Positions 13,348-26,766 of a stretch of DNA of 44,509 nucleotides are shown one piece after another; position 1 is the first letter of the stretch, and the number at the start of each line of letters is the position of its first letter. Both the position numbers and the translations under genes were made by a program. This DNA comes from Planctomycetaceae bacterium (GTDB taxonomy: Bacteria > Planctomycetota > Planctomycetia > Planctomycetales > Planctomycetaceae), in contig JAGQPY010000006.1 of assembly GCA_020426485.1 (NCBI GenBank), forward strand, positions 1-44,509, given 5' to 3'. Below the pieces are notes generated by a model, which ran no database searches, was not told the DNA's origin, and saw only the letters and a list, made by a program, of their open reading frames with translations.

Positions 13348-14589
13348 ATGAGTCAAGCTTCAGGGACGAACATGACGAACGCCTCACCCACGACTTCACC
13401 AGATCGATGTTCCCGCACCGGCGCAACCGAAGCGTCTGCCGAACAGGCCGAAAGTGCCACCTTTGATCAACGGTACCGGGTTGCGATAACTCTTCTGATG
13501 ACAGCCGTGCTGGCTCTGTTACCCGTCGGTCAGCAGATTGCAGCAGCGTTTCGATCAGATCCGTTACCACCACTCAATATCAACAAATCACGTCCGTCGC
13601 TGCTGTTTGCCACCTACATGTACCACCACGGCACGGATCCTGTCGAACTATCCTCAACTCTCGAATCCAGATTCGTCTTTCGCAACGAAGGTACAGAACC
13701 GGTTGTGATTGGCGAAATTGAACGCAGCTGCGGCTGCATGTCTCCACGGTTGACTCAGCGAGAAGTCGCTCCCGGTGAACGAGGTGAGATTCTGGTACCA
13801 ATCGCCACGGTGAATCAGACGCCCGGGTTTCACGAGTACACTCTGACCGTCCATTACAATGATCCACAGCCACGTCGCACGACGCTGACCATCAAGGCGA
13901 CGTTTCCGGAACAGATGGTCGTTGTTCAGCCCAGAGCACTGTATCTGTCGCAAAAAACCGACAGGACGATACCGTTTCAGGTATCTGTGTCTGACTTTCG
14001 GGAGCAGCGTCTGAAGGTGACCGGTGTTCAATCATCGACACCGTACGTCAAAGTCAACCTGCAGACAGAAACGAAGAATGCGACCATCCAACAGACAGCA
14101 TTCGCGGATCACGATGCCGGTTCCGTCTTTCGAATCAATGGCGAAGTCCAGCCCAGCATTCCTTCCGGACGGCACGACGTCCTGCTGGTGGCTCAGACTG
14201 ATGATCCGGACTACGCCATGCTGACGGTACCAATGCTGCTCAACGGCCCCGCTCGACCATCCGACCAACAGGTCACGGTATCACCACCGCAGCTGCGAAT
14301 ACCGATCACTGGAATGCAGGTCATTGACCGAACCTTCGAAGTCCTGCTGAATCTTCCCACCGACTGGAAGATCAGTCAGGCAACGGCATGGCCGGAACAG
14401 TTAGACGTCGAGTTTGATAACGCCCTCTCAAACAATTCCGAACCTCAGCTGGAAGGCCGTCAGGACGTACCGGTTCGCGTGAGACTCTCTGCGCTGCCGG
14501 AATTTCCCGTGAAGGATGGCGTGATTCACCTGTCCGCGAATGACAATCGGGATCTGGTCACCATCAAGGTCAATTTCCACTGGCCATAG
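13348..14589 (+). CDS. Membrane-anchored DUF1573 protein
   Basis: A 413-residue protein with a polar N-terminus, one transmembrane or uncleaved signal segment (about 44-66) and an extracytoplasmic beta-rich part. The DUF1573 hallmark FxxxNxGxxPVVIGEIERSCGC is present, with SCGC at 127-130, followed by a PGERGEI turn. DUF1573 has an immunoglobulin-like fold of unknown function and is highly expanded in Planctomycetota and Bacteroidota. A second Ig-like stretch may occupy residues about 300-410. Start at ATG 13348; an ATG eight codons later is an alternative. It opens a run of envelope genes on the plus strand but is separated from the next by about 540 bases. Confidence 0.85.
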   Translation: MSQASGTNMTNASPTTSPDRCSRTGATEASAEQAESATFDQRYRVAITLLMTAVLALLPVGQQIAAAFRSDPLPPLNINKSRPSLLFATYMYHHGTDPVELSSTLESRFVFRNEGTEPVVIGEIERSCGCMSPRLTQREVAPGERGEILVPIATVNQTPGFHEYTLTVHYNDPQPRRTTLTIKATFPEQMVVVQPRALYLSQKTDRTIPFQVSVSDFREQRLKVTGVQSSTPYVKVNLQTETKNATIQQTAFADHDAGSVFRINGEVQPSIPSGRHDVLLVAQTDDPDYAMLTVPMLLNGPARPSDQQVTVSPPQLRIPITGMQVIDRTFEVLLNLPTDWKISQATAWPEQLDVEFDNALSNNSEPQLEGRQDVPVRVRLSALPEFPVKDGVIHLSANDNRDLVTIKVNFHWP

Positions 14590-15130
14590 GATGCGCGGCG
14601 ACGCGACACCACCATCCTGCACTACGGCAACATCAGCTTCGATCGAGGGTCGAGAGACGGGGAATTCAAGTTCACGGAAGAAGATGCGCGCTTCATTGAG
14701 GTCGACTCTAATCCAGCGCTGTGGTCCGGATTGGTTTTTTCGTGACGGAAGTCCCGTTATCATCAGACAGGTCACGGGCACCAACTTTTCCGCAATCTCA
14801 CCTTTCGGACGTGTCACATCTGCTAGGTTTTCGGACAGCCTGTGCCTGCCGTTGGCACACACTGCGGAATGCTTTGGACGGAAATACCAACCGATGATCT
14901 CGCCTCCACAAGACTGCCTTTTCAAGCTTCGTTTCGGATTCCCAGGGACGGATCATCCAGGATTAAGCGCGCTGCTCAACGCGGTGAACAGATTTCGTAG
15001 CCGAGTTCGGGAGAACTCGGAAGCTGGCCCATGCTCTCAGAAGTCTCACGACTTCTGCGACGGTCCTCACGACTTCTGCGACAGTCCTGTTCCTGCGGAA
15101 TCGGGTGACAAGAAACCTTCACGGCGTTGC
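14590..15130. other. Gap between the DUF1573 and DUF1592 genes, containing repeat copy A
   Basis: The plus-strand frame of the following gene stays open through this whole gap back to 14540. The deduced residues upstream of 15131 show no family similarity, and no ATG lies close to the signal peptide, so I read the extension as non-coding. The right third (14979-15129) is the 151-bp inverted-repeat element. The left part holds nothing I recognise. Confidence 0.55.
14979..15129. repeat. 151-bp structured inverted-repeat element, copy A
   Basis: It aligns without gaps to 26331-26481, with 22 differences by hand count. The ends are imperfect inverted repeats (ACGCGGTGAA and TTCACGGCGT). Inside are two perfect hairpins: 15001-15020 (CCGAGTTC, loop GGGA, GAACTCGG) and 15039-15056 (AGAAGTC, loop TCAC, GACTTCT). 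A short direct repeat, ACGACTTCTGCGAC, follows. It has no coding capacity for a transposase, so it is MITE-like or a structured RNA. It abuts the proposed GTG start of the DUF1592 gene. Confidence 0.85.
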
Positions 15131-17536
15131 GTGCTGCTGTTCTGTGTCGCCTTTCTGAGTCAACTTGCGATTCCTGTCGACGGACGTGGCGATGATGACG
15201 CCGTTACCGGGTTTCTGAAACAAAACTGCACGTCCTGCCACGGTGCCGAAACACGGGAAGCGAATATCCGTCTCGACGAAATCTCACTGTCCAGTCTCGG
15301 CAGCGAAAATGTTTCGGCGGCTGCGGACGCGACTTCCATCTGGAACAGAGTGCTGAATGTTGTCGAATTCGGAGAAATGCCGCCATCAGATCAGACGCAG
15401 CCGACTACAGAAGCTGTACAGGCGTTTCGAACGCAGATCATCGAGTCGCTTGCACGCCACGCTGGAAACAGACCGGCCGCACTACGACGGCTGAATCGTC
15501 GGGAATACGAAAACACGGTGCATGACCTGCTGGGCATTCAGGTCCCGCTGAGTGACCTTCTTCCGGAAGACGGAAGCGTGCAGGGCTTTGACAATGTGGC
15601 GGATGGTCTGAGCATCTCATCAGTGCTGATGGAACAATATCTGGAAGCCGCAGACACGGCCTTCGAAGCTGCCATTCGCCGAATTCGGCCTTTGCCCGCG
15701 GAAGTACGTCGAGTGCAGTTAATGGATGTCAGTGAGAACATTGATTCCGTCGACAAGGCCAAAGGCGGCACCATCGAAGTCGAAAACTCATTTGTCAAAT
15801 TCACACCCGGATGGCCTCCGGCTCGACTGGATGCCGTCCATCCCATCGAAGACGGCGTTTATCGCTGCCGAGTCGCCGTCTGGCCGCATGACGCGGGTGA
15901 ACGCACTCTGTCGCTGGCCATCTATGTGGGAAGCCTGTTTGGCCCGGAAACACGAAAATTCATCGGCATTTTTGACGTCACCGGCACATCGAAGGAACCG
16001 CGAGTCATTGAATTCACAACCTTCCTGAAAGAGGGCCACGCCATTCACCTGGAACCTCGAATCTGGCCGGAACACGTCACCTGGCGCGATAAGCACGAAA
16101 AGCGACCGGGGATTGGAATTGTCTGGTCAGAAACTCACGGACCGCTTGATCAGGACTTCCCCAGCCTGTCTCAGAATCGCCTGTTCGGTTCCGGTGACAC
16201 GATTTCAATGCAGGAAGATCGCCCGATCTATATGCGGCATCGCAAAGGAGTAAAGACTCACATTGTTGTTTCCACTCAGCCGGAACAGGACGCCGAACGC
16301 ATCATCTACGACTTTCTTCCCCGAGCCTTCCGACGCCCCGTCACCGCAGAAGATGCAGAACCGTTCGTTCGTCTGACTCTGGATCGCCTTCAAAGCGGTC
16401 GGACATTTGAACAGGCCATTCGCGCGGGAGTGACGGCGGTGCTGTGTTCGCCTCAGTTCCTGACGCTTAACTCCGCAACGACGGTCGACGACTTCACGAT
16501 TGCGTCCCGCCTGTCCTACTTTCTGTGGTCAACCATGCCGGATCAGGAACTACTCTTGCTGGCCGGACAGGGCCGGCTGAGCCAGCCCGAAGTTCGTTCG
16601 GCTCAGATCGAACGCATGCTGCGGGATGAACGATCCGAGAACTTTGTGAACAACTTCACCGGACAATGGCTCAACCTGCGAGATATTGAATTTACCACAC
16701 CCGACAAAAAGCTGTATCCGGAATTTGATCATCTGCTGCAGGAAGCCATGGTGGCCGAATGTCGTCAGTTTTTTCATCACGTTCTGATGAATGATCTCAG
16801 TGTCACCAGCTTTATTGACTCCGACTGGACTTTTCTGAACGAACGCCTGGCACGGCACTATGGGATTCCGGGAGTGAAGGGCAATGAGATTCTGCGGCGG
16901 ACTTCCATACCGGACGACAGCATCCGTGGTGGAGTGATGACGCAGGCCGGTGTGTTAAAGGTCACTGCGAACGGAACAACGACGTCGCCCGTCATTCGCG
17001 GAATCTGGGTGCTGGACCATCTGCTGGGGCGACCAGCCCCGCCGCCTCCACCGGGCGTGCCGGCAGTGGAACCAGACATCCGTGGAGCAACAACCATTCG
17101 CGAACAACTGGACAAACACCGCAACATCGCCGCCTGTGCGAGTTGTCATCGACGAATTGACCCTCCGGGGTTTGCCATGGAAGAATTCGATGCCATCGGC
17201 GGAGTCCGCTCATGGTATCGTTCCGTGGGTGAAGGAGAAAAGCTGGAAAAACGGCTGCCATACTTCAAAGGACACGATGTGAATTCGACAGCCGTGATGG
17301 CCGACGGCCGAGAATTTTCAAGCTTCAAAGAGTTCCGTCAGTGTCTGCTTCAGGATCGGGAAATCGTCGCCAGAGCCATCGCCGGCAAACTTCTGACCTA
17401 CTCGACGGGAAGACGTCTGGTCCCGGGCGATCGAAAGCAGCTGGACAGCATCGTGATGCAGGCCGAATCCTCAAACCTCGGCCTGAAGTCAATGATCCAC
17501 GCCATCGTGAACAGTGACCTGTTCCTTTCGCCTTAG
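15131..17536 (+). CDS. Planctomycete cytochrome-C-domain protein with DUF1587, DUF1595, DUF1592, DUF1588 and DUF1585
   Basis: An exported protein of about 801 residues. After a hydrophobic leader comes a heme-binding CxxCH (C33, C36, H37) of the PSCyt1 type. Then follow DUF1587 (about 116-180, LRRLNRREYENTVHDLLG), a middle region that may bind carbohydrate (about 190-370), DUF1595 (about 390-450), DUF1592 (about 453-580), DUF1588 (about 590-697, with a second CxxCH in CASCHRRIDPPGFAMEEFD) and DUF1585 (about 713-800). This is the standard domain order. Function is unknown; a periplasmic redox or polysaccharide-related role is usually proposed. The start is uncertain. No ATG is near the leader, and GTG 15131 lies right after repeat copy A. 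The residues KKPSRR just upstream, encoded by the repeat, would make a good signal-peptide n-region if translation began earlier. The stop codon lies in the 264-bp inverted repeat. The DUF1552 gene that commonly follows this family is not here. Confidence 0.85.
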   Translation: MLLFCVAFLSQLAIPVDGRGDDDAVTGFLKQNCTSCHGAETREANIRLDEISLSSLGSENVSAAADATSIWNRVLNVVEFGEMPPSDQTQPTTEAVQAFRTQIIESLARHAGNRPAALRRLNRREYENTVHDLLGIQVPLSDLLPEDGSVQGFDNVADGLSISSVLMEQYLEAADTAFEAAIRRIRPLPAEVRRVQLMDVSENIDSVDKAKGGTIEVENSFVKFTPGWPPARLDAVHPIEDGVYRCRVAVWPHDAGERTLSLAIYVGSLFGPETRKFIGIFDVTGTSKEPRVIEFTTFLKEGHAIHLEPRIWPEHVTWRDKHEKRPGIGIVWSETHGPLDQDFPSLSQNRLFGSGDTISMQEDRPIYMRHRKGVKTHIVVSTQPEQDAERIIYDFLPRAFRRPVTAEDAEPFVRLTLDRLQSGRTFEQAIRAGVTAVLCSPQFLTLNSATTVDDFTIASRLSYFLWSTMPDQELLLLAGQGRLSQPEVRSAQIERMLRDERSENFVNNFTGQWLNLRDIEFTTPDKKLYPEFDHLLQEAMVAECRQFFHHVLMNDLSVTSFIDSDWTFLNERLARHYGIPGVKGNEILRRTSIPDDSIRGGVMTQAGVLKVTANGTTTSPVIRGIWVLDHLLGRPAPPPPPGVPAVEPDIRGATTIREQLDKHRNIAACASCHRRIDPPGFAMEEFDAIGGVRSWYRSVGEGEKLEKRLPYFKGHDVNSTAVMADGREFSSFKEFRQCLLQDREIVARAIAGKLLTYSTGRRLVPGDRKQLDSIVMQAESSNLGLKSMIHAIVNSDLFLSP

Positions 17537-17795
17537 AACCCCTAACAGAACCTAAGAGTCCGCGTTGTGACGACAGTGGTCGAGATGCAAGGAAGAGCGA
17601 CGAGGCGACACACGTCGTCGAGGAGTGATGACGCCGCAGATCGGCTGCTGTCGTCGCAACCCTTCGGGACGCCTGTGGTTGCGTCTCAGGCGGCGGCGCT
17701 CGGCGTCGACGAGATGTCTCGCCTCCTTCTCGCTTCTTGCCTGAAACACAACCACAAGCGTCGCGGATCTCTTAGGTTTTGTTAGCGGTTCTTAG
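17532..17795. repeat. 264-bp long inverted repeat (MITE-like or long-hairpin element)
   Basis: The left end (from 17532) and the reverse complement of the right end (to 17795) agree over the first 27 bases with three mismatches. After a one-base indel, CCGCG follows in both. Weaker complementarity continues inwards (AGGCGA, TCGTCGA and a CGCAACC/GGTTGCG inner stem around 17654-17692), so the whole segment can fold into one long hairpin. Small open frames on both strands inside it look like by-products. The left terminus overlaps the TAG stop of the DUF1592 gene (17534-17536). Confidence 0.8.
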
Positions 17796-18107
17796 TTTGT
17801 CGCGGTGAAGGTGACAACATCGCCACGGGAAACAGCCGCAACGGGTTCGTCGAGCTGCGTTTTCCGGTCGTCGGTGGCGTATTTGCCCGATCGAAGCAGG
17901 CCTCACAGACTGCCCCGAACTCGGACCATTTGCGATCCCCTTTCGCCGAAAACGTTGGCGAAACAATTTGATTTTCCGCATAATGCAATGACTTCGTCGG
18001 CACTGACGGCGGAGTCGTTCCCACCTGAACTCTGCCCACCGGTCACATCCAAGCCTGCGTGACCAGTCTCTTCTGCACGTCCTGCACCCACCGTCGGAGG
18101 ACCGCCC
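17796..18107. other. Leader region of the DUF1549/DUF1553 gene
   Basis: No gene is visible. It ends with a strong ribosome site (GGAGG at 18096-18100) before the GTG at 18108. It probably contains that gene's promoter. Confidence 0.45.
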
Positions 18108-20612
18108 GTGTCTGATCGAGTCAACACATCTGACTTACGACCTGTTGTTCAACGGATCATCTTTGCCATCGCATTGAGCGCCGCACCGATGGGTGTCTTT
18201 GGCGGCCAGCCCGCCGGAATCGAGGTTCAGCCGCCGCAGATTGAACTCCATGGCAACTTCGCGGAAGCACAGCTGCTGGTGCGACAAAAGTCGTCCGCTG
18301 ATTCGCTGAAGACCGCCCAGGATTTGACTCGGGCAGCCACCTACCGCTGTGCGAATCCTGAGATCGTGCAGGTTGGGCCAAGTGGACAACTGCTGGCTCT
18401 GACCAACGGAACCACCGTGATTCATGTGGAGCATTCTGGCAGCAAGGCAGAAGTCGCTGTCAGCGTTTCTGACGTCAGTGACATTCCCAACGTCACCTTT
18501 GATGGCTACGTGCGACCTATTCTCAGTCGGCTGGGCTGCAACGCCGGAGCATGTCACGCCAGTCAGTTCGGGAAAGGAGACTTCGTGCTGTCGGTAGTGG
18601 GCTTTGACCCGAAACTGGACCACAATTCGATGGTTCGTGATCGCTTTCAGCGACGAGTGAATCTGGTTCAGGCGGACGAAAGCCTGCTGTTGATGAAACC
18701 TACCATGCAGGTTCCGCACGGTGGCGGTCAACGGCTGCTGAAAGACTCCACGGCCTATCAAACTCTTCGGGCATGGATTGCCACCGGAGCCGCCGGTCCC
18801 GATGCGAAAGCGCCGGCTCCGGTGAAGATCACGACCTGGCCACGGGAGCGAATCGCAGAACCCGGCCAGCAGCAGCAGCTTCGAGTTGTCGCGGAGTTTG
18901 ATGACGATACAACACGAGACGTCACTTCGTGGGCGAAGTTTGATTCAACCGACGATGCCGTTCTGTCTGTGACACCCGAGGGCCTTGTGACGGTCGAAGG
19001 GCGAGGACAGGCTCCCATTATGGTTCGGTTCGAAGGGCAGGCCGACATCGCGATGTTCGTGTCACCTTTCGGTCCGGCTCCCGAACTGAACGACTGGACA
19101 TCAGAAAATCTGATTGACGTCGCCGCGGTTCAGAAGTTTCGGGAACTGGGAATCGCCCCCTCAGACCTCTGCCGTGACGAAACCTTTATTCGGCGAGCGT
19201 ATCTGGATGCTGTAGGGACTCTTCCCACGCCAGTGGAAGTCGCTGCTTTTGTCGCAGATCAGCAGCTCGGCAAGCGTGAACAACTGGTGGATGCACTGCT
19301 GGGACTGACCGGCGATCCGGAAAAGGACCGCTTCAATGATGAATATGCCGCACTTTGGACACTCAAATGGTCTGACCTGTTGCAGAATTCCAGTAAAGGG
19401 CAGGCCGCCGATGAACAGCGCATGTGGGCCATGCACAACTGGATTCGTGAATCGTTCCGAGTTAACAAGCCCTTCGATCAGTTTGTGCGGGAACTGATCA
19501 CCGCCAAGGGATCCATCTACGCCAGCGGACCAGCCAGCTATTTCAAGATCAACTCCAATTCCTCCGACCTTGCCGAGGTGACGGCTCAACTGTTTCTGGG
19601 CGTGCGGCTTCAATGTGCCAAGTGTCATCATCATCCGTTTGAAAAGTACAGTCAGGCAGATTACTACTCTTTCTCAGCCTTCTTTTCGCGAGTCGGCAAC
19701 AAGAACAGCCAGGAATTCGGTCTCTTCGGACGTGAAACCGTGGTGATGGTGAAGTCGTCCGGCGATGTGCGTCACCCCCGAACAGGGGAACTGATGAAGC
19801 CCAGCCCGCTGGATGGCGAACCGGTGGACCACGAACTGGACCGTCGAATTCCTCTTGCCGCATGGCTGACGTCTGCGGCAAACAAAGACTTTGCTCGCAG
19901 CGTTGCTAATCGTTATGTGGCTTATCTGCTGGGTCGAGGCCTCGTGGAACCTGTCGACGACATGCGGGCCACAAACCCACCCACAAACCCGGCGATGCTG
20001 GAACAACTGGCAGATTCCTTCATTGCCAGCGGGTTTGATTTGAAGCAGCTGATCCGAATCATCATGACATCGCGGCTGTACCAGCTGGATTCGCAACCAA
20101 CGACAGCCAACGCCTCGGATGAAAAGTTCTACTCGCATTTTAAGGTCAAGCGCCTTTCGGCCGAACCGCTGCTGGACGCCATCGATTACGTCACGCAGTC
20201 GCAAACCAAGTTCAAAGGCCTGCCGCGCGGAACCAGAGCCATTGAACTTCCTGACGGCGAATACCCGGACTACTTTCTGACAACTTTCGGGAAGCCCAAA
20301 CGAGTCAGTGTCTGCGAATGTGAACGAATGCCCGATGAGAATCTTGGACAGGCTCTGCACACACTAAACGGTGATATTGTTGCCGGAAAAATTTCGGACA
20401 AAGCTGGACGCATCGCAGCACTGCTGGCGTCCGAAAAGACTGATGCGGAAATCATCACAGAACTGTACCAGGTCATTCTGTGTCGTCAGCCAACCGTCAG
20501 GGAAACCGAAACGGCACTGTCCTTCCTGCCTCAAAGTACCGGTCGAAAAGAATTCTTCGAAGATCTGACCTGGGCGTTGCTGAACAACAAGCAGTTCCTG
20601 TTCGTGTACTGA
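18108..20612 (+). CDS. Exported DUF1549/DUF1553 protein with Ig-like domains and cytochrome motifs
   Basis: An 834-residue protein starting at GTG with GGAGG eight bases upstream. A signal peptide (about 14-33) is followed by a bacterial Ig-like (BIG2-type) segment (about 40-125) and a heme-like motif CNAGACH (near 143-149) in a PSCyt-type region. A second Ig-like stretch lies at about 225-320. DUF1549 (about 340-525) contains CxxCH in CAKCHHHPFEKYSQADYYSF (near 503), and DUF1553 (about 580-820) follows. This architecture is almost confined to Planctomycetota and Verrucomicrobiota. Its role is unknown, but it is usually encoded beside DUF1501 or PPC-domain genes. Here the next gene, 99 bases on, is a PPC protein, which supports a two-gene operon. 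Confidence 0.92.
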   Translation: MSDRVNTSDLRPVVQRIIFAIALSAAPMGVFGGQPAGIEVQPPQIELHGNFAEAQLLVRQKSSADSLKTAQDLTRAATYRCANPEIVQVGPSGQLLALTNGTTVIHVEHSGSKAEVAVSVSDVSDIPNVTFDGYVRPILSRLGCNAGACHASQFGKGDFVLSVVGFDPKLDHNSMVRDRFQRRVNLVQADESLLLMKPTMQVPHGGGQRLLKDSTAYQTLRAWIATGAAGPDAKAPAPVKITTWPRERIAEPGQQQQLRVVAEFDDDTTRDVTSWAKFDSTDDAVLSVTPEGLVTVEGRGQAPIMVRFEGQADIAMFVSPFGPAPELNDWTSENLIDVAAVQKFRELGIAPSDLCRDETFIRRAYLDAVGTLPTPVEVAAFVADQQLGKREQLVDALLGLTGDPEKDRFNDEYAALWTLKWSDLLQNSSKGQAADEQRMWAMHNWIRESFRVNKPFDQFVRELITAKGSIYASGPASYFKINSNSSDLAEVTAQLFLGVRLQCAKCHHHPFEKYSQADYYSFSAFFSRVGNKNSQEFGLFGRETVVMVKSSGDVRHPRTGELMKPSPLDGEPVDHELDRRIPLAAWLTSAANKDFARSVANRYVAYLLGRGLVEPVDDMRATNPPTNPAMLEQLADSFIASGFDLKQLIRIIMTSRLYQLDSQPTTANASDEKFYSHFKVKRLSAEPLLDAIDYVTQSQTKFKGLPRGTRAIELPDGEYPDYFLTTFGKPKRVSVCECERMPDENLGQALHTLNGDIVAGKISDKAGRIAALLASEKTDAEIITELYQVILCRQPTVRETETALSFLPQSTGRKEFFEDLTWALLNNKQFLFVY

Positions 20613-20711
20613 TCTTCGAACTTCTCTGCGGCATTTCCCAGACCGTCCTTCCACCCGCAGCGGCAGCCGAAACACAGACCGACTGCTCCTGCATTGCTAT
20701 CGGTTCGCCTT

Positions 20712-22829
20712 ATGTCTATCCGACTTGTTCCAACTGCGCTGGCACTGATCTTTTTCAGCCGCTGTGTTCAGGCTCAGTCGTCCTATCCGATGCTGATGAG
20801 TCTTTCACCTGTCGCAGCCTGCCGGAACCAGACGTCAGAGCACACACTGGATGCTCGTTACAGCATGTACGGCGCTTATGACGTGATTGTGACGGGCTCT
20901 GGTGTTACCGGCCGGATCGTGACGCCCATGGAGCCGGACAAAGACGGCAAAATTCCGTCGATGACGAAAATCAAAGTTCAGTTTCAGGTCGAATCCGACG
21001 CGCTGCCGGGGGTCCGGGATTTCCGCATTGTGGGGCCGACGGGGCCAAGCACTCTCGGACAGCTCGTCATCGTCCGTGACCCTGTCGTTCAGGAGGAACC
21101 AAAGAACGACACAGCCGACACCGCACAGGCGATTCCCGTTCCGAGTGCAGTGTGCGGAACCGTCGAACGTGCAGAAGATGTCGACTTCTATCGCTTCACC
21201 ATTGAAACTCCGGGACAGTGGACGTTTCACTGTCGCGGGATGCGGCTGCAGGATCGGATTCATGACCTGCAAACTCACATTGATCCCATCATCACGATTC
21301 GGGATGCGAAGTCCGGCAGCACTCTGGCAGCGGCCGACAACAACTTCGCCGCCGACCCGTTCCTGACGTTCGATTTCCGCAAAGGCGACTACCTGCTGGA
21401 GGTCCGCGATGTCCGCTACAGCGGCAACGCCTACTGGAACTACTGCATCGAAATCAACAATCGACCCTTTGTCTCCAGTGTTTATCCGGCCTCCGTTCAG
21501 CGCGGGCAAACATCAGAGCTGCAACTGATCGGTTCCGGCCTGTCGTCCGCCTCCGTTGTCCGTCACACCGCAGCAGAGAACACGGATGCATGTGTTCAGG
21601 AAACCGCACTCTCGCTGGAAGGAGACACCACCAATCCGGTTCCCGTTCTGATCAGCGACCTGCCTGTCGTGATGGAAACAGACAAAGACAACAACAGCGT
21701 CCCGTCAGCTCTGCCAATCGAGATTCCGGCGGCGCTAACCGGGCGGATTGAAACAGAAGCAGACATCGACTGTTTTGCCTTCACGGCGACCAAGGGAGAA
21801 CATTTGACTCTGGAAATCAAAGGACGACGCTATTCTTCCGGACTGGATTCCAACCTGCGCATCCTGAATGCTGAAGGAAAACAGCTGGTCGAAAACGACG
21901 ATATGCGACTGTGGAATCGGATGACTGCACAGGATTCGCAGATTGAAAACTGGGTGGTGCCTGCCGATGGCACCTACATTGCCGAAGTCAGAGACGTGCA
22001 TCTTCGGGGCGGCCCGGACTTCGTATACACGCTGGAAATCACCAGAGCCGAACCCCATTTCGAACTGGTGGCGGACTCGGACAAGACGTGGCTGACTCCT
22101 GGAGGTGCCGCCGCAATCTTTGTTCGCATCGTCAGAAAGAATGGCTTTGACGGAGAAGTTCAACTGAACGTTGACGGCCTTCCGGATGGTGTTCAGGCGG
22201 AATGTGGTCGCATCCTGTCCGGAAAGAACGAAGACGGCTGCATCATTCTGATGGCTTCGCCGGATGCGAAAATGGCGGCTTCCAATATCACGATCCGCGG
22301 CACCGCAGTCACCGGCCGGAACAGCAGCAATGCGGACAAACCGACAACGGATCTGCCGCTCAGTGCCGTCGCCGTGGCGATGCAGGAAACCTACATGCCC
22401 GGTGGAGGCCGCAGCCACTGGCCGGTGGAAATTCACACAGTTGCCGTCGGCCAGCCATCTTCCGCAGATGTTCTGCAGGTGAAGATCAGCACCAACGAAC
22501 TTACACTGAAACGCGGGCAATCCGGATCGGTCGATGTCGAAGTCATTCGACAGGAAGGCTACGACAAAAACATCACTCTGGACCTGCTTTATCAGCATCT
22601 GTCCAGCAAATTTGCAAACACGCTGCCCGAAGGTGTCACAGTCGACCTGAAGAACAGCCAGACTCTCCTGACCGGTTCTAAGTCGACGGGGAAAATCACG
22701 CTGACCGCCGCTGCGAATGCTCCGCTGGTCCGGCGTCAGCAATGTGCCGTGATGGCCAATGTCTCCATCAACTTTGTGATGAAGGCAACTTACAGCAGCG
22801 AACCGTTGTTTGTTTCCGTCACGGAATAA
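20712..22829 (+). CDS. Secreted protein with two pre-peptidase C-terminal (PPC)-type domains
   Basis: A protein of about 705 residues with a signal peptide cleaved near VQA (about 21). Two PPC-like beta-sandwich domains can be seen. The first (about 130-235) begins EEPKNDTADTAQAIPVP and contains GTVERAEDVDFYRFTI. The second (about 325-440) contains GRIETEADIDCFAFTATKGEHLTLEIKG. Between and after them are IPT/Ig-like strands. No protease or other catalytic domain is present, so it is likely a structural or binding partner of the DUF1549/DUF1553 protein upstream. ATG 20712 places the signal peptide at the very N-terminus; TTG 20694 would extend it by six residues. It is convergent with mraZ. 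Confidence 0.85.
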   Translation: MSIRLVPTALALIFFSRCVQAQSSYPMLMSLSPVAACRNQTSEHTLDARYSMYGAYDVIVTGSGVTGRIVTPMEPDKDGKIPSMTKIKVQFQVESDALPGVRDFRIVGPTGPSTLGQLVIVRDPVVQEEPKNDTADTAQAIPVPSAVCGTVERAEDVDFYRFTIETPGQWTFHCRGMRLQDRIHDLQTHIDPIITIRDAKSGSTLAAADNNFAADPFLTFDFRKGDYLLEVRDVRYSGNAYWNYCIEINNRPFVSSVYPASVQRGQTSELQLIGSGLSSASVVRHTAAENTDACVQETALSLEGDTTNPVPVLISDLPVVMETDKDNNSVPSALPIEIPAALTGRIETEADIDCFAFTATKGEHLTLEIKGRRYSSGLDSNLRILNAEGKQLVENDDMRLWNRMTAQDSQIENWVVPADGTYIAEVRDVHLRGGPDFVYTLEITRAEPHFELVADSDKTWLTPGGAAAIFVRIVRKNGFDGEVQLNVDGLPDGVQAECGRILSGKNEDGCIILMASPDAKMAASNITIRGTAVTGRNSSNADKPTTDLPLSAVAVAMQETYMPGGGRSHWPVEIHTVAVGQPSSADVLQVKISTNELTLKRGQSGSVDVEVIRQEGYDKNITLDLLYQHLSSKFANTLPEGVTVDLKNSQTLLTGSKSTGKITLTAAANAPLVRRQQCAVMANVSINFVMKATYSSEPLFVSVTE

Positions 22830-23150
22830 TCCGGAAGGTCGGACTGCATGTCAGTTCGATGGCTGCGCGATCTGAGAGTCTGCGTGACGAAATCTGTCGG
22901 CCATAGAGGTCGCGGCAGTCGGCGGGAACCGACATCACGATAGGCGTCGTCAAACAGCCGTCAGTCGCACATGTCAGGCCGTTCGTTCCTCGCACCATCC
23001 GTGGGGTCATCAGAACGAACGGCCTGTGGCCCGTTTCCGGGCCATGTGCCGAGACAAGAGAATCCATTCTCTCATCAGGTCTTCCGCGAAGCCCGGTGAA
23101 GCCTGCGGTCGAACGCAATTGAGCGATGAAACTCAGACTGATTGAGACGA
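22830..23150. other. Convergent gap between the PPC gene and mraZ
   Basis: It holds two strong hairpins (22975-23026 and 23027-23044) and no credible gene. A minus-strand frame opens at a GTG overlapping the mraZ stop, but it runs through both hairpins and into the PPC gene and resembles nothing. rsmH (mraW), the usual gene after mraZ, is absent. Confidence 0.6.
22975..23044. terminator. Tandem hairpins between convergent genes
   Basis: A perfect 14-bp inverted repeat (22975-22988 with 23013-23026, 24-base loop) is followed directly by a 7-bp GC-rich stem (TGGCCCG, loop TTTC, CGGGCCA; 23027-23044). Neither has a T-run, so they may act as RNA 3-prime stabilisers or Rho-assisted terminators for the two converging transcripts. 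Confidence 0.45.
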
Positions 23151-23618
23151 TCACCCGTCCGTGGGTGTCCCGACAATGAAACTGTCGAGTGCTTCCGATG
23201 TCAAATCGTCGTACTCAGCTGTGTGACCACTCAGGAACTGCTCCCACTTGGATTTGTCCCAGATTTCCGCGTGGTCGTTGACCCCCAGAATGACAACTTC
23301 TCGTGTCAGTCCGGCGTGGGTCATCAGGCGATCCGGGATGAGAATACGGGCCTGCTTGTCCAGTACCACACGCTCCGCGCGGGCGTAGAACAGTCGCAGA
23401 AAAGTGCGGACATTGGCTCGCCCGGGAGAGAGGTTGGCGAGCCGGTGAGCAAATCGATCGAATCCTTCCGTTGAAAAGACTGACAGGCACCCTTCGTTGC
23501 CTGGTGCCAGATAGAGCTCATCAGAATCCTTCACCCCAAAACCATCTTTCAGTGGTTTGGGAATGGCCAGTCGGAACTTCTCGTCGACAACGCGTTCATA
23601 GGTGCCGGTCAGCGTCAT
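23151..23618 (-). CDS. mraZ: Transcriptional regulator MraZ
   Basis: A 155-residue protein made of two SpoVT/AbrB-like repeats. The first (about 1-60) begins MTLTGTYERVVDEKFRLAIPKPLKD. The second (about 70-125) contains LDKQARILIPDRLMTHAGLTREVVILGVNDHAEIWDKSKWEQF, the MraZ hallmark. MraZ forms ring-shaped oligomers, binds TGGG repeats upstream of its own gene and controls the division and cell-wall cluster in most bacteria. Here the gene stands alone: the bases after it contain no rsmH, ftsL or ftsI, and the next gene is convergent. A good operator lies 73 bases upstream of the ATG. Planctomycetes are known to lack FtsZ and to have a scattered cluster, so autoregulation and unlinked targets are likely. 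Confidence 0.95.
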   Translation of the reverse strand: MTLTGTYERVVDEKFRLAIPKPLKDGFGVKDSDELYLAPGNEGCLSVFSTEGFDRFAHRLANLSPGRANVRTFLRLFYARAERVVLDKQARILIPDRLMTHAGLTREVVILGVNDHAEIWDKSKWEQFLSGHTAEYDDLTSEALDSFIVGTPTDG

Positions 23619-23690
23619 TGACGTTCAGTTTCATCAGCATTCTGTACACAACTACTGAATTCACAGTGACTTGCGGCAGGGGACTCAGTT

Positions 23691-23715
23691 CCCCACTTTT
23701 CCCCACAAGCAACCA
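23691..23715 (-). promoter_or_regulatory. MraZ operator: three TGGKK boxes with 5-base spacing
   Basis: On the minus strand the order is TGGTT, 5 bases, TGGGG, 5 bases, TGGGG, with exactly the 10-base period described for MraZ direct repeats (TGGGN separated by 5). The two downstream boxes are perfect and the upstream one is degenerate. It lies 73 bases before the mraZ ATG. The interval could hold the core promoter (for example TACAGA about 25 bases before the ATG). Confidence 0.8.
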
Positions 23716-23830
23716 CTGAGGGGCAATTTAGCTATCCGAAAGGGTGCGTCAAGTCGATCAGCGACATTCGATCGTTGCGACCCGCCCCCCAGTCGTCGCA
23801 GGTCGTTGGCTGACAACGATCTTGGCGAAT

Positions 23831-24985
23831 TCAGCAAAATTCAGATTCGTCTTTCGACTCAAGAATCTGTCGGGACGAGTTCAGCAGATCTCGCAACAAA
23901 CGGTCGTATCGCTCGACGCACAGATTCCAGCTAAACTTCTGTGTGACAACATGTTGCGCGTTCTTGGCAAATGTGCGACGGAGGTCCGGGTCAGAAATCG
24001 CCACCTCCATCGCTCTGGAAAGGCTGGCTGGATCGCCTGCCCTGACCAGCCACCCCGTTTCGCCGGAAACAATCAGATCCCGGACCCCATCCACTTCGGT
24101 GGCCAGAACCGGCAGACCTTCTGCCATGGATTCCAACACAACATTCGGAAGTCCCTCCCAAAGTGACGGAAGGACCAGCAAGTCCGCCCGTCGCATCAGC
24201 AGCCGCACGTCGTCTGAACGTCCGTGAAGGTGAACCAGATGACTGATGCCGTATTGGGCCGCAGTCTTCTGAATGGACTCTCGAAGTGGACCGTCACCAA
24301 CAAAGCTGAGCCGACATCGTTCTCTCAACAGGGCAGGCAGTTGAGAGAATGCCTGCAACAGATCCAGTGGGGCTTTCTGAGGAACCAGGCGGCCCACATA
24401 CAACAGTTCGAATGTCTCCGATGAATGGCCTGTCACGACATCATGATCGGGCAGCAGGTCAACGCCGTTGCAGATCGTGGAGACTCGGTCCGCAGAAATC
24501 GAACACAGTTCGGCGTGCAGTCGGGCAACGGACGGGCTAACCGCGATGTAGTGATCGCACAGGCGACTCGTCAGTCGATCCGGCCAGACAACACTCGCTC
24601 GTCGATCGGCCACTCGAACACCGGAGACCAGCAGTCGTGGCTCCGCCGCTCGGTCTGTGAAGTGCAGTACACACCGAGCAAGACGCCCGTAGATGTTCGC
24701 CTGATTCAGAAAACACAGCAGCACATCAGACGGTGCTGAGCGAAGAGCATTCGCAAGTCTCCGGACGGCTCGAAGATCTGCCATTCCTCCGCAGTTCAAA
24801 GCGGTGACAGGAATCCCGGCATCCATGATTCCTTTCGCCAGCGGTCCGGCATCTCTCAGACTGATGACTCGAACTGTCCAGCCACGTCTGTGCAGACCGA
24901 CCGCGATTCGCGCAAAGGCGTTTTCTGCACCGCCCACATCCAGTTCGGTGATACAACAGGTGATCGATGGAGATGCTTCATCCAT
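23831..24985 (-). CDS. GT4-family glycosyltransferase
   Basis: A 384-residue GT-B fold enzyme. The N-terminal acceptor domain has ITELDVGGAENAFARIA, with the GGAE motif near 18-21. The linker ICNGVD leads into the C-terminal nucleotide-sugar domain with LLYVGRLVPQKAPLDLLQAF, FVGDGPLRESI and the retaining-transferase E-x7-E motif in LWEGLPNVVLESMAEGLPV (about 275-295). It should transfer a sugar from a nucleotide donor to a lipid or polysaccharide acceptor on the cytoplasmic face of the membrane; donor and acceptor cannot be told from sequence. It is transcribed alone, away from queA. Confidence 0.92.
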   Translation of the reverse strand: MDEASPSITCCITELDVGGAENAFARIAVGLHRRGWTVRVISLRDAGPLAKGIMDAGIPVTALNCGGMADLRAVRRLANALRSAPSDVLLCFLNQANIYGRLARCVLHFTDRAAEPRLLVSGVRVADRRASVVWPDRLTSRLCDHYIAVSPSVARLHAELCSISADRVSTICNGVDLLPDHDVVTGHSSETFELLYVGRLVPQKAPLDLLQAFSQLPALLRERCRLSFVGDGPLRESIQKTAAQYGISHLVHLHGRSDDVRLLMRRADLLVLPSLWEGLPNVVLESMAEGLPVLATEVDGVRDLIVSGETGWLVRAGDPASLSRAMEVAISDPDLRRTFAKNAQHVVTQKFSWNLCVERYDRLLRDLLNSSRQILESKDESEFC

Positions 24986-25191
24986 TTTGGAACGTCGTCA
25001 AATTCGATATTGTTCCGCCTGCCGCACACTCAACCACTGAACCCGACCTTTGCGTTTTCCGGCGCGACGAACAGAATTGCCTTTCGATGATGAATCCTCA
25101 CGAAGCAGTTTCGTGAACCGTTTCGTGGGGGTTGCCTGCGGCGACCCTTCTCTCGACACCCCGAGCCTGACTTTTCGAACCAGGATTTCCA

Positions 25192-26286
25192 GTGATTCCT
25201 GATCTCGACAACCTGTCTGCGTGGCAATATGACCTGCCACAGCATCTGATTGCCTCCCGTCCGGCCGAGCAGCGCGATGGTGCCCGCCTGATGGTCGTCG
25301 ATCGGAGTTCCGGCCGGATCAGTCATCATCAGGTTCGAGATCTCCCGGATCTGCTCAGTCCATCAGATCGCCTGGTATTCAACAATACGAAAGTGATCCC
25401 CGCGCGTTTGTTCGGATTCCGCACATCCACCGGCGGACGCTGGGAAGGCCTGTTTCTGAACACAGAACCCGACGGACGATGGAAAATCACCGGACAGACT
25501 CGCGGAAGGCTGCAGGTTGGCGAAACACTGACCGTGATTCCGGCCCTGCCCGTGGAATCGGACGCCTCTGCGGTCCCGACTCCTGAAAAAACACTCATCC
25601 TGACGCTCACCGGGCGATGCGAGGATGGCACGTGGCTGATGTCTCCTGAGGACGAAACCAAGTCGTTCCTGGAGTCGCTGGAAGAATTCGGAACTCTGCC
25701 GCTGCCGCCGTATATCGGTCGAAAGATTGCCGATCAGGAAGACTGCCAGCGCTATCAGACCGTCTTCGCCAGTCAGCCGGGAGCCATCGCGGCCCCCACG
25801 GCCGGGCTGCATTTCAGCGAAGCGCTGCTTCAGCAATGTCAGCAGCGGGGAATCCGGCAGAGCCATGTGACGCTTCATGTCGGAATCGGCACTTTTCGAC
25901 CGGTCTCAACGGAACGTTTGTCTGACCATCAGATGCACTCCGAGTGGGGCTGTGTTTCAGAAGAAACCGCTCAGGAGATTGCCTCAACGCAGCGAGAGCA
26001 GGGCAACGTAGTGGCCATCGGTACGACATCCGTTCGAACTCTGGAAGCCGCCAGTCTCCACGGAAAACTGCTGCCCTGGAGCGGTTACACCGATCTGTTC
26101 ATTCGGCCGGGTTACCAGTTTCAAACGGTGGATCGACTGTTGACCAACTTTCACCTGCCGGGTTCGACACTACTGGCCCTCGTTGCTGCACTTGCAGGCT
26201 ACGAAACCATCATGAACGCCTATGCGATCGCGGTCGCCGAAAAATATCGCTTCTTCAGCTACGGCGATGCGATGCTGATCCGCTAA
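25192..26286 (+). CDS. queA: S-adenosylmethionine:tRNA ribosyltransferase-isomerase (QueA)
   Basis: It transfers and isomerises the ribose of SAM onto preQ1 at the tRNA wobble position to make epoxyqueuosine, in the cytoplasm. The 364-residue protein has the family landmarks: LSAWQYDLPQHLIASRP at the start, VFNNTKVIPARLFG, GTLPLPPYIGR, RYQTVFASQPGAIAAPTAGLHFSEALL, HVTLHVGIGTFRPV, and LLTNFHLPGSTLLALVAAL near the end. The start is GTG at 25192 with AGGA about eight bases upstream. No other queuosine gene is in the window. Confidence 0.96.
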   Translation: MIPDLDNLSAWQYDLPQHLIASRPAEQRDGARLMVVDRSSGRISHHQVRDLPDLLSPSDRLVFNNTKVIPARLFGFRTSTGGRWEGLFLNTEPDGRWKITGQTRGRLQVGETLTVIPALPVESDASAVPTPEKTLILTLTGRCEDGTWLMSPEDETKSFLESLEEFGTLPLPPYIGRKIADQEDCQRYQTVFASQPGAIAAPTAGLHFSEALLQQCQQRGIRQSHVTLHVGIGTFRPVSTERLSDHQMHSEWGCVSEETAQEIASTQREQGNVVAIGTTSVRTLEAASLHGKLLPWSGYTDLFIRPGYQFQTVDRLLTNFHLPGSTLLALVAALAGYETIMNAYAIAVAEKYRFFSYGDAMLIR

Positions 26287-26766
26287 TAGCCCGCCACTTC
26301 GGAAGCGTGTAGTGGACGGATCTGAGCGCTACGCCGTGAAGAGATTTCGTAGCCGAATTCGTAAGAATTCGGAAGCTGGTCCATGACCTCAGAAGTCTCA
26401 AGACTTCTGCTGCGTTCCTCACGACCTCTGCGACGCTCTTTTTCCTGCGGAAACTGGTGACAAAAACCCTTCACGGCGTTGGAGTCTGCCCCTCTCTGTT
26501 CAGCCCTCCAAAGGGTCAGACCGCTTTTTCAGATCGCCTCTGACACGGTTCGCTCCGCCGGCAAACAACCCCAATTGTGGATCTTCCTGAAACTCAAAGG
26601 CCACCTGAGTTCCGGCATTCAGCAGGACCTGCCGGTTTTGCTGGACCTCCGTGCCGGTAACCACTGCCGGAGCCCGGCCCGTGGGGGGATCTGATCTTGT
26701 GACTGAATCGGGACCACCGCTAGAAATACCCGAACTTCCACCGTTTTCCCGGACGATTCCTGCGCG
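26287..26766. other. Gap between queA and the zinc-ribbon gene, with repeat copy B and a coding-like minus-strand remnant
   Basis: 26331-26481 is the second copy of the 151-bp element. To its right, the minus-strand frame ending at the TGA at 26500 has protein-like composition for about 80 codons but no good start before it runs into the divergent zinc-ribbon gene. It could be a small gene or a broken one. Confidence 0.45.
26331..26481. repeat. 151-bp structured inverted-repeat element, copy B
   Basis: It is the same length as copy A and aligns with no gap. Its ends are a perfect 10-bp inverted repeat (ACGCCGTGAA and TTCACGGCGT). The internal hairpins are conserved: 26353-26372 (CCGAATTC, loop GTAA, GAATTCGG) and 26391-26408 (AGAAGTC, loop TCAA, GACTTCT). 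The first hairpin differs from copy A by a matched G-C to A-T change in the stem. It lies 45 bases after the queA stop. Confidence 0.85.

Follow-up and report, generated by a model that had tools for sequence, protein, structure and literature searches.

What kind of genetic element is the short, hairpin-bearing repeat that occurs twice in a 44,509-nt stretch of planctomycete DNA (Planctomycetaceae bacterium, assembly GCA_020426485.1, contig JAGQPY010000006.1, positions 1 to 44,509; hereafter the window)? A preliminary description, made from the sequence alone, had offered three readings: a miniature inverted-repeat transposable element (MITE), an element resembling repetitive extragenic palindromes (REPs), or a structured RNA family. 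We consider it highly probable that the MITE and the REP-like reading hold together, as two nested layers, and that the repeat is a non-autonomous element in which an IS4-type MITE shell carries a GTAG REPIN (a REP doublet forming hairpins); the structured RNA is left unsupported. In this arrangement the outer layer would be a shell without coding capacity that begins and stops with the ends of an IS4-type insertion sequence (CAACGCCGTGAAG[C/G]ATTTT), and would be moved in trans by an IS4-type transposase. This enzyme would cut targets that are rich in GC and more or less palindromic, with a stagger of 9 bp, thereby producing 9-bp duplications. The inner layer, or cargo, would be a dimer of GTAG REPs of the sort copied elsewhere by IS200/IS605-like HUH transposases (REP-associated tyrosine transposases, RAYT, or TnpA-REP), and would be exchangeable, other palindromic repeats occupying the same shell.

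The two copies, A and B, align without gaps over 151 bp (14979 to 15129 and 26331 to 26481), as had been described, and differ at exactly 22 of these 151 positions; BLAST matches one to the other with an E-value of 4e-44. The real left ends, however, lie 2 bp further out, at 14977 and 26329, because target-site duplications and other copies place them there, so that each copy measures 153 bp and the differences number 23. Terminal inverted repeats are indeed present, but where 10 bp had been given, perfect in B and with one mismatch in A, they span 13 bp of CAACGCCGTGAAG type, with two mismatches in A and one in B. The features of the two copies are as follows.

14977 to 15129, plus strand: copy A, whole element of 153 bp, proposed MITE shell with REPIN cargo
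14968 to 14976, plus strand: left target-site duplication of copy A, CGCGCTGCT, 8/9 identical to the right one
14977 to 14989, plus strand: left terminal inverted repeat of copy A, CAACGCGGTGAAC
14997 to 15020, plus strand: REP unit 1 of copy A, GTAG tag and hairpin with 8-bp stem
15038 to 15061, minus strand: REP unit 2 of copy A, inverted, CAGAAGTC-TCAC-GACTTCTG followed by the degenerate tag CGAC
15066 to 15082, minus strand: extra half REP of copy A (CTCACGACTTCTGCGAC), a partial repeat in tandem, present in differing numbers in the individual copies
15117 to 15129, minus strand: right terminal inverted repeat of copy A, CAACGCCGTGAAG
15130 to 15138, plus strand: right target-site duplication of copy A, CGTGCTGCT
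26329 to 26481, plus strand: copy B, whole element of 153 bp
26329 to 26341, plus strand: left terminal inverted repeat of copy B, CTACGCCGTGAAG
26349 to 26372, plus strand: REP unit 1 of copy B, GTAG followed by CCGAATTC-GTAA-GAATTCGG
26390 to 26413, minus strand: REP unit 2 of copy B, inverted, degenerate tag CTGC
26469 to 26481, minus strand: right terminal inverted repeat of copy B, CAACGCCGTGAAG

The outer layer has the properties of a MITE: it is short, non-coding and present in many copies, and its terminal inverted repeats are bordered by direct duplications of the target. Across 47 elements, a repeat of exactly 9 bp abuts the ends (CAACG...CGTTG) with a mean identity of 0.72, compared with 0.36 in permuted pairs; 19 of the 47 match at 8 or more of the nine positions, where 0.5 would be expected, and within the window's own genome 11 of 19 match at 7 or more. 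Perfect duplications (9/9) are found at loci L104 (CCTGAAAGG), L110 (CCGATACGG) and L033 (CCTGCTCAG), and the duplicated targets tend towards short GC-rich palindromes. Duplications of 9 bp at the ends of an element are the footprint of a DDE transposase. The GGGCnnnGCCC flanks, considered as a part of the element, were rejected as such; they are the duplicated target, because their variable centre mostly agrees between left and right at a given locus and differs among loci. With its length in the range of 70-300 bp, its lack of coding capacity, its terminal inverted repeats and its direct duplications, the shell resembles known bacterial MITEs (NEMIS, RUP, ERIC and Nezha), and presumably also in its mobilisation in trans by an insertion sequence enzyme (general knowledge and PMC3733652); it differs from them in that its interior is itself a known type of mobile palindrome, and an interchangeable one.

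A likely source of the transposase came from a class-wide search for the ends, in which one genome (G148) had a pair of inverted, closely matching ends at a distance of 1.6 kb. This locus (L320:239-1852), from another member of the class, is an insertion sequence of 1,614 bp that contains an intact open frame of 491 aa; CAACGCCGTGAAGGATTTTA stands at both ends, the 19-bp end pattern is matched exactly at each (the ends held in common being 19-20 bp), and CCTGAAAGG is duplicated on either side. The encoded protein has the domain and the motif looked for in a partner: it matches PF01609 (DDE_Tnp_1, E 4e-13), and its translation contains YKMRWGIEVEFRGLK, which on reading fits the IS4-type signature Y(2)R(3)E(6)K. 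Judged by these sequence features, L320 is likely an autonomous relative of the MITE shell, and together with the 9-bp duplications it sustains the earlier MITE guess as a description of the outer layer. L320 is like IS4-family insertion sequences in its DDE transposase with the Y(2)R(3)E(6)K signature and in its 9-bp duplications, but its best NCBIfam model, NF033592 (IS4_1, E 2e-25), gives 89.6 bits against a cut-off of 115; because it scores below the curated NCBIfam IS4 cut-offs, the L320 group is possibly an undescribed IS4 subgroup. Three related insertion sequences (L331 in Pirellulaceae bacterium PLA7, L332 and L333; 33-42% protein identity) have CWACGCCGT-type ends and 9-bp duplications (CCCTGCGGG, 9/9, in L331; 9/9 in L332; 7/9 in L333), and PLA7 also has a decayed transposase copy beside an exact CAACGCCGTGAAGGATTTT end (L335). 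Among the matches listed for DDE_Tnp_1 loci in the window's genome, PLA7, Planctomycetaceae bacterium CSSed162cmA_153 and Pirellulales bacterium MAG_21, no good end pair with a duplication was found; one such gene of PLA7 (L295/L331) was later identified as a relative with diverged ends. A 1.35-kb pair of ends at L177, considered as an autonomous element, was rejected, as it consists of two separate MITEs. We infer that an IS4-type enzyme moved the copies of the window's family.

The inner layer is a REPIN. Hairpins 1 and 2 are built alike, with GTAG, a stem of 8 bp and a loop of 4 nt, and point in opposite directions; the pair is a head-to-head dimer of GTAG REPs lying within the shell, which bears out the REP-like guess for this layer. 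The tag of unit 2 is CTAC in most copies and degenerate (CGAC or CTGC) in those of the window; the position of the REPIN in the shell is constant, just inside the left terminal repeat. The same unit also exists free of target duplications: 30 REPINs from other planctomycetes that lack this shell give no duplication signal (best mean identity 0.35 vs 0.26), and their stems show matched changes (GAATTC, GAACTC, GAAGTC, GATCTC). Short IS200-type Y1 genes in related genomes (L120, L225, L230) have GTAG hairpins of this format, but with other stems, on either side, and Planctomycetes and R. baltica are already listed among the hosts of GTAG REPs (PMC3733652). With the GTAG REP dimers and REPINs that have a RAYT (PMC3733652; PMC3116915) the dimer shares the GTAG tetranucleotide, the short hairpin, the spacer-separated inverted pair and a high copy number; in contrast to them, it lies within a shell of terminal repeats with 9-bp duplications, and the window's genome yielded no cognate RAYT.

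The cargo of the shell varies. Another palindrome, GTTTAACCCGATGCCGCAGGCGAGG...CCTCGCCTGCGGCATCGGGTTAAAC (GTTTAACCCG type), is found in the same shell at two loci with 9/9 duplications:

L203, 1329 to 1513: shell with GTTTAACCCG-type palindrome
L222, 1501 to 1636: shell with GTTTAACCCG-type palindrome

Half-sites of this palindrome number 159 in the window's genome (control 0), and it also occurs outside the shell (L253-L282). In PLA7 the shell encloses a GTAGCGGAACGGCGCAAGCCGTCCGG palindrome (GTAGCGG-type) at L152, L176 and L183. Conversely, REPINs and the GTTTAACC palindrome are found bare or enclosed by different outer repeats. The REPINs would have entered their shells through an HUH enzyme or recombination. 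As further observations on these composites, a 295-bp shell with an 8/9 duplication (L031:416-710) appears to contain both a REPIN and the GTTTAACC palindrome; a 144-bp shell with an 8/9 duplication (L326; G219:C12:2400-2850) contains a further palindrome (TACAAGCACGACACGCGAGCGAGTG...); and REPINs of the same type lie within unrelated outer inverted repeats (AACTCGCAAG; AGTGCTTTGTCAAAC; GTCGTGTCTCTCAAG) at L056 and L065 (G013), L045 (G022) and L039 (the window's genome).

The preliminary description had taken preserved pairing as a sign of a molecule selected or moved in folded form. The paired change in hairpin 1 is real (CCGAGTTC-GGGA-GAACTCGG in A, CCGAATTC-GTAA-GAATTCGG in B), as is the identity of the hairpin 2 stem (CAGAAGTC ... 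GACTTCTG) in both copies. That particular G-C to A-T change is present in one of 34 aligned sequences, in which 94.2% of cells pair and double-sided changes occupy 37 cells, against 16 in shuffles; the signal is lost when the partners are slid, and most of the compensatory change falls in two hairpin 2 pairs and a single pair of the terminal repeat. A structured RNA, cis-regulatory or small, that a transposon had spread and that was retained for its fold would account for hairpins so maintained; we nevertheless find it scarcely credible, as compensation lying mostly in few pairs is expected of any palindrome under selection by a transposase, unrelated palindromes can replace the cargo, and Rfam gives no match at gathering thresholds in the whole window. 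The outer unit, moreover, leaves duplications of the kind that double-strand DDE transposition makes. The GNRA loop seen in hairpin 1 of both window copies is not conserved: it occurs in 24/34 elements in hairpin 1 (GCCA in 7/34) and in 0/34 on the plus strand of hairpin 2, whose usual loop is the complement, TCAC; on these counts GNRA was rejected as a diagnostic. The covariation appears ordinary for maintained palindromes, requiring no RNA function, and the stems would persist as transposase substrates.

Could the two layers be one? If the entire element were a long REPIN or bacterial interspersed mosaic element (BIME), which a RAYT-type HUH transposase moved as a single strand together with its outer repeats, these repeats would merely lengthen a hairpin. 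In its core the element is a GTAG REP dimer of textbook form, the full single strand folds 3.4-5.9 standard deviations below mononucleotide shuffles, and RAYT-like genes exist in the window's genome and in related ones; in other phyla, too, REP dimers are regularly embedded in longer inverted repeats (A. variabilis GTAG-15, H. neapolitanus CGTC-1; PMC3733652), a likeness to the present element. That study took the outer palindromes as targets, and its main text does not use the word "duplication", whereas here duplications and an autonomous insertion sequence point to a MITE as the outer layer. The same ends bound an insertion sequence with an IS4-type transposase, and unrelated cargo sits in the same shell. 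The 9-bp duplications, furthermore, abut the outer ends, and we know of no HUH enzyme that makes such duplications; the long REPIN is very unlikely. Somewhat better, but still improbable, is that the REPIN is the plain interior of one MITE family spread by copying, with no mobile passenger and a likeness to GTAG REPs due to common descent only. Its constant place beside the left repeat is what such copying would give; shells with different palindromes are not, nor is the same REPIN format in the many planctomycetes where it stands bare or has other outer repeats around it.

Several results weigh against the nested reading. Copy B has no recognisable target-site duplication at its ends, nor has about a third of the elements. 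In the window's genome, a planctomycete metagenome-assembled genome (MAG) of 6.3 Mb, no relative of the L320 transposase was found at E<=1e-5 (the MAG being 86% complete, in 933 contigs), and no RAYT flanked by the same REP was found in that incomplete assembly. Its only clear RAYT-like gene (L115:1190-1867; NF047646, below cut-off) lies between inverted repeats, GGGGACGCAG and CTGCGTCCCC, that are unrelated to GTAG REPs and recall those of the TIRYT genes (PMC3733652). Among the Y1 loci examined, none was flanked by this exact REP; the Y1 fragment of L251 has one GTAGCCGAAGTC REPIN at a distance of about 600 bp, but is not flanked on both sides. More tentatively, and with less than even confidence, the nested reading may be extended: such shells could be a general vehicle for HUH-mobilised palindromes, in which cargo enters or is replaced, with two chemistries of transposition unrelated to each other, DDE (double-strand) and HUH (single-strand), jointly spreading the composite across Planctomycetota.

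The preliminary description had staked its case on further copies and on covariation among them; the search of the genome and its relatives and the covariance model found both, the latter in some measure. Copy B matches 44 places in its own genome (BLAST, E<=1e-3), and a covariance model (R1), based on 34 elements that come from four genomes, gives 114 hits there at E<=0.01; with many places hit on both strands, these amount to roughly 70 places. The outer end CAACGC[CT]GTGAAG, with at most one mismatch, occurs 234 times in that genome, against 27 for a control pattern. A search with the core pattern returned 42 stretches in named genomes, every one a planctomycete MAG and including PLA7, CSSed162cmA_153 and MAG_21, where the ends are identical and the element is mostly 132-133 bp; viral contigs gave no match to this pattern. 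At least one 20-bp end is present in 41 of 199 genomes sampled from the class, mostly one or two in each and dozens in a few. Copies with internal partial duplications of REP units (L177:1524-1676, L084, L099, L107, L109) were also seen, probably products of replication slippage on hairpins. Many copies of the repeat fall at contig ends of these MAGs. In G171, several contigs (L321, L322, L323, L328) stop some 60-100 bp from the terminal repeat described here, which suggests that an insertion sequence sharing these ends is present there in several copies, its body left unassembled; the L320 protein has no match in that genome.

In the window, copy A lies inside an open frame upstream of a gene and is covered by no conserved domain; copy B lies downstream of queA. 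Within 14540 to 17536, copy A is read through in frame ahead of a gene for a PSCyt1/PSD-type cytochrome. Its right terminal repeat would there be translated as KKPSRR, directly followed by a hydrophobic segment that resembles a signal peptide, and the target duplication on the right covers GTG CTG CT, a possible start codon of that gene.

Parts similar to those of this element are already known, including REP dimers within outer palindromes (PMC3733652). No report of their combination, a MITE shell with a REPIN, was found in the open-access literature searched. The usual view ties REPINs to a single RAYT on the chromosome. If carried inside an IS4-type MITE, a REPIN could move without an enzyme of its own, even in genomes that lack that enzyme, and such riding would help to explain both REPINs without a RAYT and why REP dimers had been met inside outer palindromes, a puzzle of earlier work. 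A likely transposase can now be named for a repeat that is abundant in planctomycete genomes and has had no annotation.

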